In this document: one piece after another, positions 6,677 to 40,735 of the stretch
How the letters are laid out: each line of letters opens with the position of its first letter
Position numbering within the stretch: the stretch's first letter is position 1
Origin: Arabidopsis thaliana
Taxonomy: Eukaryota; Streptophyta; Magnoliopsida; Brassicales; Brassicaceae
Reading direction: 5' to 3'
NCBI RefSeq assembly: GCF_000001735.4
Contig: NC_003070.9
Span: 6,448,001-6,512,000, forward strand
Length of the DNA stretch: 64,000 bases
The notes under the pieces: model-generated
The model's input: only the letters and a program-made list of their open reading frames with translations
Told to the model about the DNA's origin: nothing
Databases searched by the model: none
Position numbers and translations under genes: made by a program

Positions 6677-8015
6677 TAGGGGTATCAAAATGGGTCAAAA
6701 TTCATTGGTCAACTCAATTCAACTCAACCCATAAACCGTAATGAGTTGAAAATTTTGACTCAAATGAGTTGATGAGTCAAATGATTTGATGAGTCAATTG
6801 GTTTGATGAATAAAATAAGTTAGGTTGTAATGGTTAATGGTTTCAATGGTTTACCCAATTAACCCATCAAGTTTTGTAAAATTGAATTAAACCAACTAAA
6901 ATCTCTAAACCAATGCCAATTTAAGTTTAACTAACACATCTAAACCAATTTAATAAAATTAATATTTTTCCAAATTTCTTAAACATACAAGCGATGAAAT
7001 TGAGAAAAAGTAAACTCGTAAATTTTCCACCAAAAAACATAAACCCGTGATTTTTCCACCAAAAAATATAAACTCGTGATTTTTCCGCCAAAAACGTAAA
7101 CCCGTGATTTTCCCACCAAAAACGTAAACTCGTGATTTTCCCGTCAAAAACGTAAACCCGTGAATTTCCCGCCAAAAACATAAACCCGTGATTTTCCCGC
7201 CAAAAACGTAAATCCGTAATTTTCCCGCCAAAAACGTAAACTCGTAATTTTCCCACCAAAAAACGAAAACCCGTGATTTTCCCGTCAAAAACGTAAACCC
7301 GTGATTTTCCCGCCAAAAACATAAATCCGTGATTTTCCCACCAAAAACGTAAACCCGTGATTTTCCCGTCAAAAACGTAAACCCGTGAATTTCCCGCCAA
7401 AAACATAAACCCGTGATTTTCCCGCCAAAAACGTAAATCCGTAATTTTCCCGCCAAAAACGTAAACTCGTAATTTTCCCACCAAAAAACGAAAACCCGTG
7501 ATTTTCCCGTCAAAAACGTAAACCCGTGATTTTCCCGCCAAAAACATAAACCCGTGATTTTCTCGCCAAAAACGTAAATCCGTGATTTTCCCGCCAAAAA
7601 CGTAAACCCAAGATTTTCCCGCCAAAAACGTAAACCCGTCATTTTCCCGCTAGAAACGTAAATCCGTAATTTTCCCGTCAAAACCGTAAACCTATAATTT
7701 TTCGCCAAAAACGTAAACCCGTGATTTTTCCACCAAAAACGTAAACCCGTAAAAAGTGGAATCCGTAAATATTCTAAGTTTGATGATAATAAATTAATAA
7801 TGATAATTATTTATTATTGTTTTATAATAATAATTAATTAAATTATTATTTAAATGGGTTAACCTATTTAACAACTCAACCCATCAAATTAAATGAGTTA
7901 TGAGTTGACTCAACCCATTTAACAAAATGAGTTGGGTTAACCCATAACTCATTTAACCTTAAACTCATTTGATTATGACTTGAGTTGAGTTGAGTTACCC
8001 ATTTTAACACCCCTA
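6677..8015. mobile_element. Non-autonomous hAT-type DNA transposon
   Basis: The left end TAGGGGTATCAAAATGGGT and the reverse complement of the right end, TAGGGGTGTTAAAATGGGT, match at 17 of 19 positions and have the typical hAT terminal form. The flanking octamers ACTACAAT (6669-6676) and ACTACAAC (8016-8023) match at 7 of 8, as expected of an 8-bp hAT target-site duplication. Subterminal zones are full of CAACTCA/TGAGTTG repeats, usual transposase-binding architecture. There is no transposase; the interior is a minisatellite plus AT-rich DNA. The near-perfect duplication suggests fairly recent insertion. Confidence 0.88.
7010..7750. repeat. 28-bp minisatellite, about 26 copies, inside the hAT element
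   Basis: Units built on TTTTCCCGCCAAAAACGT plus AAACCCGTGA recur every 28 bp, with occasional 27- or 29-bp units. I count about 26 units, 11 of which keep an exact TTTCCCGC, the plant E2F-site core. A higher-order duplication of 225 bp (eight units, one of them 29 bp) is visible: the variant CCCACCAAAAAACG occurs near 7253 and again near 7478. Because 28 is not a multiple of 3 and the unit lacks stops on the minus strand, long open frames with a 28-residue repeat appear there; these are artefacts. Confidence 0.9.
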
Positions 8016-16124: not shown

Positions 16125-17273
16125 ATGCCAGCTACGGATTTTCAAGGATCATTTGGAAGGTCGTTGCTAAGTTTACGGCGAGACCAAGTTGACTCATCAA
16201 CAGTCGTCTCCGGAAGTAGTAGCCACCACGAGCCAAGCACCATGGAGGTTGAGCTAGATTCGTTTCAAAGACAAGTCGCTGAGAAATTCATCGATCTCAA
16301 CGCTTCTTCAAACGACCTTCTCTCTCTCGAATGGATCGGAAAGCTTCTTGATTCTTTCCTCTGTTGTCAAGAAGAGTTTCGAGCTATCGTATTCAACCAC
16401 CGATCTCAGATCTCTAAATCTCCGATGGACCGTTTGATTTCAGATTACTTCGAACGGAGCATCAAAGCTCTAGATGTCTGTAACGCCATCCGCGACGGTA
16501 TCGAACAGATCCGTCAATGGGAGAAACTTGCCGATATTGTGATCTCTGCTTTAGATAGTCACCGTCCGATCGGAGAAGGTCAGCTCCGGCGAGCTAAGAA
16601 AGCTCTGATTGATTTAGCAATCGGAATGCTTGACGAGAAAGATCATCCTTCTGGAACCAATCTAGCTCATCGTAACCGTTCATTCGGAAGAGTCAAAGAC
16701 AGTCACCACCGTTCGATTGGTCATTTCAGATCTCTTTCTTGGAGTGTTTCAAGATCATGGTCAGCTTCTAAGCAGTTACAAGCTTTAGCGAGTAACTTGG
16801 CAACGCCTCGACCAAACGATGTCGTTGCTAGCAATGGTTTAGCTGTACCGGTTTACACAATGACTTCGGTTTTGCTTTTTGTGATGTGGGTTTTGGTAGC
16901 TGCGATTCCTTGTCAAGACCGTGGATTGCAAGTTAACTTCTTTGTGCCTAGGCATTTCCAATGGGCAGCTCCGGTTATGTCGTTGCACGATAAGATTGTT
17001 GAGGAATCTAAGAGAAGAGATAGGAAGAATTGTTGTGGTTTGCTTAAGGAGATTGATAGGATTGAGAAGAGTTCGAGGTTGATGAATGAATTGATCGATT
17101 CGATTCATTTCCCGTTGAATGATGACAAGGAAGTTGAGGTGAAACAGAGAGTTGATGAGCTTGTTCAAGTTCGTGAAGCTTTGAGAAATGGTTTGGATCC
17201 GTTTGAGAGGAAAGTAAGAGAAGTTTTCCATCGGATTGTGAGAAGCAGAACTGAGAGTCTTGATTCTCTTTGA
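16125..17273 (+). CDS. ROH1-like DUF793 (BYPASS1-related) protein
   Basis: Single-exon gene of 382 residues starting [19 protein letters not shown]. This N-terminus and the following [18 protein letters not shown] and [20 protein letters not shown] are typical of the plant DUF793/ROH1 family, related to BYPASS1. Founding member ROH1 was found as a partner of exocyst Exo70 proteins and acts in seed-coat mucilage secretion; an exocyst-linked role here is inference from family. A hydrophobic segment near residues 243-262 ([17 protein letters not shown]) could anchor it in membrane. The C-terminal third is a predicted helical bundle rich in charged residues. An in-frame TTG six bases upstream is not a plausible start; the ATG at 16125 was chosen. 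Likely At1g18740. Confidence 0.9.
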
Positions 17274-17793
17274 TCTTGCACATGTTTGTCTGAATATGAT
17301 GAATGATTCATGTTTGGATTTTTTGTTTTGTTTTTGTTTTTCTCTATTTATCCTTTTTGATCACTTGTAAAAAAGAAACTCAAAGAGTGTAGAAGTGTCA
17401 TCTTCTCTTTGTGATGCTGATAGTGATTCTGTTCTTCTTTGTGTAGCTACTTGCTTAGATTGAAGTTATTTTTTCAATGAACAGTTGTATCAAATACTTC
17501 ATTGAATTTGAAAGATTACATTCAAGAAACAAATGAATCTTTATTTAGAGAAGAGGTTCAACTAAAGGGTCTGTTTTACAATTCAAATGAAGCACATACA
17601 AAATCTAGACATAACCTTAAATTTCTCATCTAATCTTCACAATCTTCTGCTGGCTTGAGTCCAGCTTCATGTTTGTGACGTCCTACTTTATTTCTTGCAA
17701 GTGATTCTTCCTGCAAATAGAGCTCAAATGAAATCCAAATAAATGATTAGGGATTAGAACAGAACAAACATTTGTTGTAGACAGTATTCACGG

Positions 17794-17871
17794 TTTGCCT
17801 CAGACATAAGTGATATTCATCACTGAAAAATCTGATAATACGTGCAATTGTTTAGGCACATCATTGGCAAA
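17794..17871 (-). ncRNA. C/D-box snoRNA candidate (18S guide)
   Basis: Read on the minus strand: terminal stem TTTGCC/GGCAAA, C box ATGATGT (last base off consensus), D' box CAGA, C' box GTGATGA and D box CTGA, in about 78 nt. The guide before D', TTGCACGTATTA, is complementary over 12 nt to 18S rRNA TAATACGTGCAA near nucleotide 120 (rRNA recalled from memory). By the D+5 rule it would direct methylation of the U after TAA. I could not assign a target to the guide before D. Confidence 0.7.
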
Positions 17872-17929
17872 ACCAACTAAATACCCAAGCAAAAAAATGT
17901 TAAATAATGAGCAAAGGATTCTTAGTTAT

Positions 17930-18011
17930 GTGCATCAGAGAGATTCCCATCTAGACATTAGTCATCATTATAGAACTTCTGATGTCCCTGTCTATTCATC
18001 GTCACTTGCAC
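17930..18011 (-). ncRNA. C/D-box snoRNA candidate, 25S double guide, copy 2
   Basis: Terminal stem GTGCA/TGCAC, C box GTGACGA (one base off), D' CAGA, C' ATGATGA and D CTGA. The guides AGACAGGGACA (before D') and TGGGAATCTC (before D) are identical to those of the neighbouring copy at 18093-18187 and complementary to adjacent 25S rRNA sites TGTCCCTGTCT and GAGATTCCCA. It is 82 nt long, and shorter than the other copy in the D'-C' spacer. Confidence 0.78.
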
Positions 18012-18092
18012 TAGTCAAAAGACACCAAAAGAGTATCAAAACGAAGCAAAACAGAAAATACTAGATCAAAGTTGATAAACAGTCTGTGAGAT

Positions 18093-18187
18093 ATGCATCA
18101 GAGAGATTCCCATCTAGACATTAGTCATCATTCTCATCTCCTAACAAGGAGATTCTGATGTCCCTGTCTTTTCATCATCACTTGCAT
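18093..18187 (-). ncRNA. C/D-box snoRNA candidate, 25S double guide, copy 1
   Basis: Terminal stem ATGCA/TGCAT, C box GTGATGA, D' CAGA, C' ATGATGA and D CTGA, in 95 nt. The spacer between D' and C' contains a short self-complementary hairpin (ATCTCC...GGAGAT) that copy 2 lacks. Both guides pair with one 25S region. The D' guide points at the first C of TGTCCC, equivalent, as far as I recall, to the yeast snR64 target Cm2337. The D guide points at the second A of GAGATTCCC. The rRNA is recalled from memory and the pairing was checked by eye. Confidence 0.8.
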
Positions 18188-18302
18188 AAATCAGGCAACC
18201 AAATCAAATCAGAAGCTAGAAGAGCTACCAAAACCAAATCATTAATAAGCTCAAAGATCACAGTAAAATAAGAGAAACCAGATGTGTAAAGAGAGAGAAA
18301 AA

Positions 18303-18372
18303 ATGCCTCAGAGTTGATTTTTTTTTCGTAGAGACGCATCTCTCAAAGTATATTTAACACCATCACAGGCAT
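18303..18372 (-). ncRNA. C/D-box snoRNA candidate (possible 18S guide)
   Basis: Terminal stem ATGCC/GGCAT encloses a C box GTGATGG (one base off) and a D box CTGA in 70 nt. TTAAATATAC, just 3' of the C box, is complementary over 10 nt to 18S rRNA GTATATTTAA (recalled from memory); the D' box that would follow (TTGA) is degenerate. The D guide region is A-rich with no target I know. It is the weakest of the four. Confidence 0.5.
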
Positions 18373-18452
18373 CAAAATCAAAATATACATAACAAAAACA
18401 ACCAAAAAACTTGCAAAAAGATCAAATCTCAAAACATTAACATGGGTCAATT

Positions 18453-18558
18453 CTAGGGTTTATCAAGAAGTGATAAATAGACGTATTTAAGAAGAGAGGC
18501 GGAGCTAATTAGGGCAGAGACAAGTCAAAGATATTAATGGGCTTTCTACTTTGGCCCA
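18453..18558 (-). promoter_or_regulatory. Telo-box plus site II promoter
   Basis: On the minus strand, AAACCCTAG (18453-18461) lies downstream of TGGGCC (18553-18558) and of a site II-type TGGGCT in reverse orientation (18538-18543). Telo-box with site II is the usual promoter signature of plant snoRNA clusters and ribosomal protein genes, which supports the snoRNA unit. Confidence 0.65.
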
Positions 18559-19265
18559 ACGAATACACATGTTAATCAATTAACAAAAAACGGTTTGGTT
18601 TTGTCGGTTTTTAAGGCAATTGAATTAACAAAACCGGTTTGGTTAAACCTTTGTCTCTCTCTAGCACAGAAGCACACAATTCCGTTGGTCGACGTCTTAA
18701 GTTTCCCAGCGAAATAAAAGGTTGTCCCTTCGTCTGCTTCTGTGAGCTTTCTCTCTGTTCCACCATTAATCTTTCCCCTTTTTCTCTTATTCAAACTTTT
18801 CTTCCTCCTTCTTCTTCCTCGGGACAAATCTTTTTGGTGCCTTTTTTTCTTTCTTTCCTCCTCCATGATCTTTCTCTTCTTTGTGACTTTCGCCTCCTCT
18901 GTGCTCATTTTCATGAATTCTTCTCTTGTTTCGACGCAAACACCCATTTTTGTTTCCTCTGTTTCTGCTGCGAAAGACCCCTTTTTAAAAAAAAAACATC
19001 TTCCGTTACAGTGAATTTTGTTGTCTAGAGATAGACTCTGTGTCCGAATTTAGACGTCCCCCATCTTCAAAGATTGGTGCTCTTCTTCTTCTTTTAAAAC
19101 AAGTTTCATCATTTTCTCAATAGGGAGAAATATACAATCAATTCCTTCCAATAAGTAGAATTTTATCAGGTGATTGAAGTGAGTATTCGAAGAAAATGTT
19201 TAGTCTTTAGAATATTTTCATTGTTGGTTATGGGATTTTGATGCTGTATTGGTTTTGAACAGGGG

Positions 19266-40654: not shown

Positions 40655-40695
40655 GTCAAGATGGCCGAGTTGGTCTAAGGCGCCAGTTTCAGGTA

Positions 40696-40727
<32 letters not shown>

Positions 40728-40735
40728 TCTTGACA
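40655..40735 (+). tRNA. tRNA-Leu (anticodon CAG)
   Basis: An 81-nt cloverleaf can be drawn by eye. Acceptor stem GTCAAGA/TCTTGAC has discriminator A. The D arm has GGCCGAGTTGGTCTAAGGC, the anticodon stem CCAGT/ACTGG has loop TTCAGGT (CAG at 40690-40692, reading CTG codons), the long variable arm is typical of tRNA-Leu, and the T arm is GTGGGTTCAAATCCCAC. There is no intron. A T-run (about 40750-40758) downstream serves as a Pol III terminator. The CCA is not encoded. Confidence 0.97.

Follow-up and report, generated by a model that had tools for sequence, protein, structure and literature searches.

Box C/D small nucleolar RNA (snoRNA) genes of plants have been described as polycistronic clusters in which several genes lie in one orientation, in intergenic DNA, behind a promoter that combines a telo-box with site II elements (PMC3022908, PMC4660826). 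In Arabidopsis, 16 of the 17 intergenic snoRNA clusters were reported to have this telo-box/site II pair (PMC3022908). A stretch of 64,000 bases of the Arabidopsis thaliana genome (NC_003070.9, positions 6,448,001 to 6,512,000; hereafter the window, whose own numbering is used below) was found to carry a group of four such genes on the minus strand at 17794-18375. The motif set and the intergenic placement were the same as in the published clusters, several C/D genes likewise shared one orientation, and no difference from the clusters described in those two reports was seen. Collectively, these data leave very little doubt that the locus is a polycistronic snoRNA gene of the ordinary plant type, in which a telo-box/site II promoter precedes four box C/D snoRNAs.

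Scanning of the whole window with 4227 Rfam families at their gathering thresholds returned five matches, four in the cluster and a tRNA. Each of the four elements matched its model over its full length and above the curated threshold. In minus-strand order, these were snoZ267 (RF00344; 18300..18375; 91.1 bits, gathering score 43), a first copy of snoR44_J54 (RF00357; 18092..18188; 98.0 bits, gathering score 48), a second copy of the same family (17929..18012; 85.3 bits, gathering score 48) and snoR122 (RF02407; 17796..17869; 102.9 bits, gathering score 36). In all four, a C box lay close to the 5' end and a CTGA D box close to the 3' end, and the two ends formed a perfect terminal stem: 6 base pairs (bp) of ATGCCT/AGGCAT for snoZ267 (stem-to-stem 18303-18372), 6 bp of TATGCA/TGCATA for the first snoR44 copy (18092-18188), 5 bp of GTGCA/TGCAC for the second (17930-18011) and 6 bp of TTTGCC/GGCAAA for snoR122 (17794-17871). 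An earlier unaided reading of the sequence (the original prediction) had placed four stem-closed C/D elements at this site on this strand; its stems are contained in those found here, and the element boundaries were as it had described them.

Compared with its family, the snoZ267 element showed differences in the middle loop, among them a 3-base insertion. The two snoR44 elements retained the guide cores and the D and D' boxes of their family and differed in loop length, the second copy also in one base of the C box, while snoR122 matched 74 of 74 model positions with no notable difference. At a loose threshold, no further snoRNA was detected in 17000-19000; the 23 matches listed comprised the four of the cluster, 18 weaker snoRNA-family matches overlapping them, and one long non-coding RNA (lncRNA) family match elsewhere in the interval, far under its gathering score. 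None of the 13 listed ATG-initiated open reading frames (ORFs) of at least 150 amino acids fell within the cluster region, which had been predicted to lack ORFs and does so with respect to that list.

The four elements were recovered again by a scan for boxes and stems, in which RTGAYGD was required to be followed by a CTGA starting 45-109 nucleotides (nt) later and the whole to be enclosed by a terminal stem of 5 bp or more with no mismatch. On both strands of the window, this C/D finder returned four matches, exactly the four elements. Among 1000 dinucleotide shuffles of 17640-18560, 988 contained no match and 12 contained one. The C-box pattern was relaxed with the elements already known, so as to admit the copy with TGACGA, and the shuffle control therefore slightly favours them; the Rfam evidence is unaffected, since that scan is independent of the pattern.

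Upstream of the first snoRNA, the motif scan located a telo-box and site II elements, as is the rule for plant clusters. In the reading direction of the minus strand, the order is the site II element TGGGCC (18558-18553), the site II element in reverse orientation AGCCCA (18543-18538), the TATA-like CTATTTAT (18480-18473), which is a motif match only, and the telo-box AAACCCTA (18461-18454). Of 5000 shuffles of 18380-18640, 2 contained a telo-box with an upstream site II element in either orientation. The telo-box and TGGGCC had both been named in the original prediction and lie where it put them. The window has 14 AAACCCTA sites on its two strands, and a site II element in either orientation lies no more than 200 bases upstream of 4 of them, the cluster's own included; thus, the motif pair by itself also occurs elsewhere in the window.

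Pairing with provisional ribosomal RNA (rRNA) letters gave every one of the four elements at least one predicted guide run of 10-12 bp to 18S U604, 25S A2327, 25S C2338 or 18S U168, which strongly supports antisense guides in these elements without proving them. By the D+5 rule, the D guide of both window snoR44 copies is predicted to be directed at 25S A2327 (10 bp) and the D' guide at 25S C2338 (11 and 12 bp). These are the two sites assigned to SnoR44 in Arabidopsis, where both are methylated and where SnoR44 is listed as one of six snoRNAs with two guides to sites 11-18 nt apart (PMC8053127). Across four snoR44 copies in the genome, both guide cores were invariant together with their boxes, CAGA for D' and CTGA for D, and the middle loop varied in sequence and length. 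The D' guide of snoZ267 points by the same rule to 18S U604 (10 bp), a methylated site assigned to SnoR115 in Arabidopsis (PMC8053127); because the two share this site, SnoR115 is presumably the Arabidopsis name of snoZ267. A role of snoZ267 as the guide for 18S U582 was ruled out, as U582 belongs to snoR77Y and the computed snoZ267 site is U604. The snoR77Y family is separate, with three matches on C2 (two above the cut-off and one below), all of which lack the snoZ267 guide core.

In a polycistronic gene of this kind, RNA polymerase II would start at the minus-strand telo-box/site II promoter, and a single precursor would carry snoZ267, the two snoR44 copies and snoR122. Cleavage and trimming of this precursor would yield the four box C/D snoRNAs, about 70-97 nt long and with their ends held together by the terminal stems. 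Within fibrillarin particles, the products would guide 2'-O-methylation of rRNA, snoR44 at 25S A2327 and C2338 through its D and D' guides, respectively, and snoZ267 at 18S U604, while snoR122 would probably be directed at 18S U168. The families, boxes, stems, promoter motifs and genome copies were observed directly; we infer the shared polymerase II precursor and its processing from the common strand, the spacing and the single promoter. The published SnoR44, SnoR115 and SnoR122 variants would include the genes of the window.

Several points weigh against this interpretation. The cluster is known here from DNA sequence alone, and the pairing relied on short, provisional rRNA snippets numbered by anchors chosen in the analysis. 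The published site numbers (PMC8053127, Table 1) agreed with the snippet letters at 10 of 10 sites, four of which are anchors (18S U582, A162 and A468; 25S A2327), so that the independent checks number six (18S G599, U604, U615 and A623; 25S A2322 and C2338); the U168 and A468 snippets are without an independent check. The D' box of snoZ267 is degenerate (TTGA), and reading it as CTTTGA moves the target to U606 with 9 bp. The snoR44 copies have either TGATGA or TGACGA as their C box, and the copy on C5 has an altered C' box. Finally, U168 is absent from Table 1 of PMC8053127, a paper that calls SnoR122 an orphan.

A different route to the same products would start from a spliced non-coding host transcript, a single intron of which would release all four snoRNAs, in place of an unspliced polycistronic precursor. 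On the minus strand, a donor-like GTATAT was noted by eye at 18388, just upstream of snoZ267, and an acceptor-like TTTGCAG|GA ending at 17711, downstream of snoR122; a duplicate cluster elsewhere in the genome (sequence piece L011, described below) has GTATGT and TTTTTTTGCAG|GA at the matching places, L011 3058 and 2436. These are candidate splice sites read by eye, however, and such short signals are frequent in AT-rich DNA. Arabidopsis clusters have been counted as 1 intronic versus 17 intergenic (PMC3022908), and release from an intron is unlikely. It is far less probable still that the main product is a stable lncRNA with snoRNA domains, that is, a sno-lincRNA such as lncCOBRA1 (AT1G05913), which has the same promoter type and holds its snoRNAs inside one transcript (PMC9175010). 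Table 1 of that paper names 14 lncCOBRA loci, and no identifier among these begins with AT1G18, although the table's 24 other protein-bound long intergenic non-coding RNAs are unplaced; identification of the locus with a named lncCOBRA was dropped on this ground.

The four genes also need not all be functional. The second snoR44 copy would be the likeliest pseudogene or silent gene, as it has TGACGA in place of TGATGA for a C box and its Rfam score is the lowest of the four. However, both of its guides, its D and D' boxes and its perfect 5-bp stem are intact, and the C5 copy carries the same TGACGA box. A pseudogene or silent gene among the four is very unlikely.

The duplicate cluster lies at C1:27984604-27985046 of the same genome. 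Its promoter is laid out like that of the window cluster, but it has one R44 copy where the window has two, and its last slot holds snoR17 in place of snoR122. The Rfam match to snoR17 spans 110 nt (L011:2605-2714, minus strand). By eye and by alignment, an 85-nt frame bounded by TGCC...GGCA, with C, D', C' and D boxes of its own, was recognized at L011:2672-2756 on the minus strand; the Rfam element may be drawn in a shifted frame, and the 85-nt element suits C/D anatomy better. The D guide of the latter forms 13 bp with 18S A468, the site assigned to SnoR17 in Arabidopsis (PMC8053127). It may be that snoR122 and this slot element are duplicates with diverged guides. On the slot, the snoR122 model scored 30.1 bits, under its gathering score of 36, and SNORD70 scored 28.3 over nearly the same stretch. 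Global alignment of snoR122 with the slot element scored 78, a value reached by 98 of 2000 box-preserving shuffles; against seven other C/D snoRNAs, snoR122 scored 41-56 and the slot element 45-61.5. The further snoR44 copy on C5 is paired with snoR124 (L012:2575-3239), and an opposite-strand tRNA gene lies just upstream of the promoter motifs of that pair.

Elsewhere in the window, the tRNA gene found by Rfam was also called by ARAGORN, as tRNA-Leu (40655-40735, plus strand). A tandem array at 7005-7750 has a 28-base unit in 26.6 copies with 86% matches, and a 225-base period was also seen. It yields two long overlapping minus-strand ORFs, which look like by-products of the repeat and not genes.

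The predicted D' guide of snoR122 would form 12 bp with 18S rRNA and place U168 at the methylation position. In the Arabidopsis RiboMeth-seq table, A162 (SnoR18) is followed by U213 as the next site, and SnoR122 is named among the expressed orphan C/D snoRNAs (PMC8053127). As only one match to the snoR122 family was found in the genome, this gene is most likely the source of the expressed SnoR122. In a Neurospora table, the guide for 18S Um167 has snoR122 as its plant counterpart, and the adjacent Am161 is paired with plant snoR18, each site being either mapped or predicted (PMC2780460). Where a 12-bp match has no mapped mark, either the RNA is a chaperone or a tissue-specific guide, or mapping missed the call, or the guide is a relic. 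It is rather unlikely that snoR122 has become a folding chaperone, whose binding to pre-18S rRNA leaves no stable mark, or a guide that methylates in some tissues only.

The description of the cluster as unannotated-looking did not hold for its RNA families: all four elements fall in curated Rfam families, and SnoR44 and SnoR122 are named in PMC8053127. Because its elements belong to known families in what is apparently the best-studied plant genome, the find is not new except for the question of snoR122, and it carries little weight, being a gene of a known kind that was read correctly. These results indicate that unaided sequence reading can locate C/D snoRNAs nearly to the base. For Arabidopsis, they leave a testable question, namely why the guide of snoR122 to 18S U168 is well formed although no methyl group has been mapped there.
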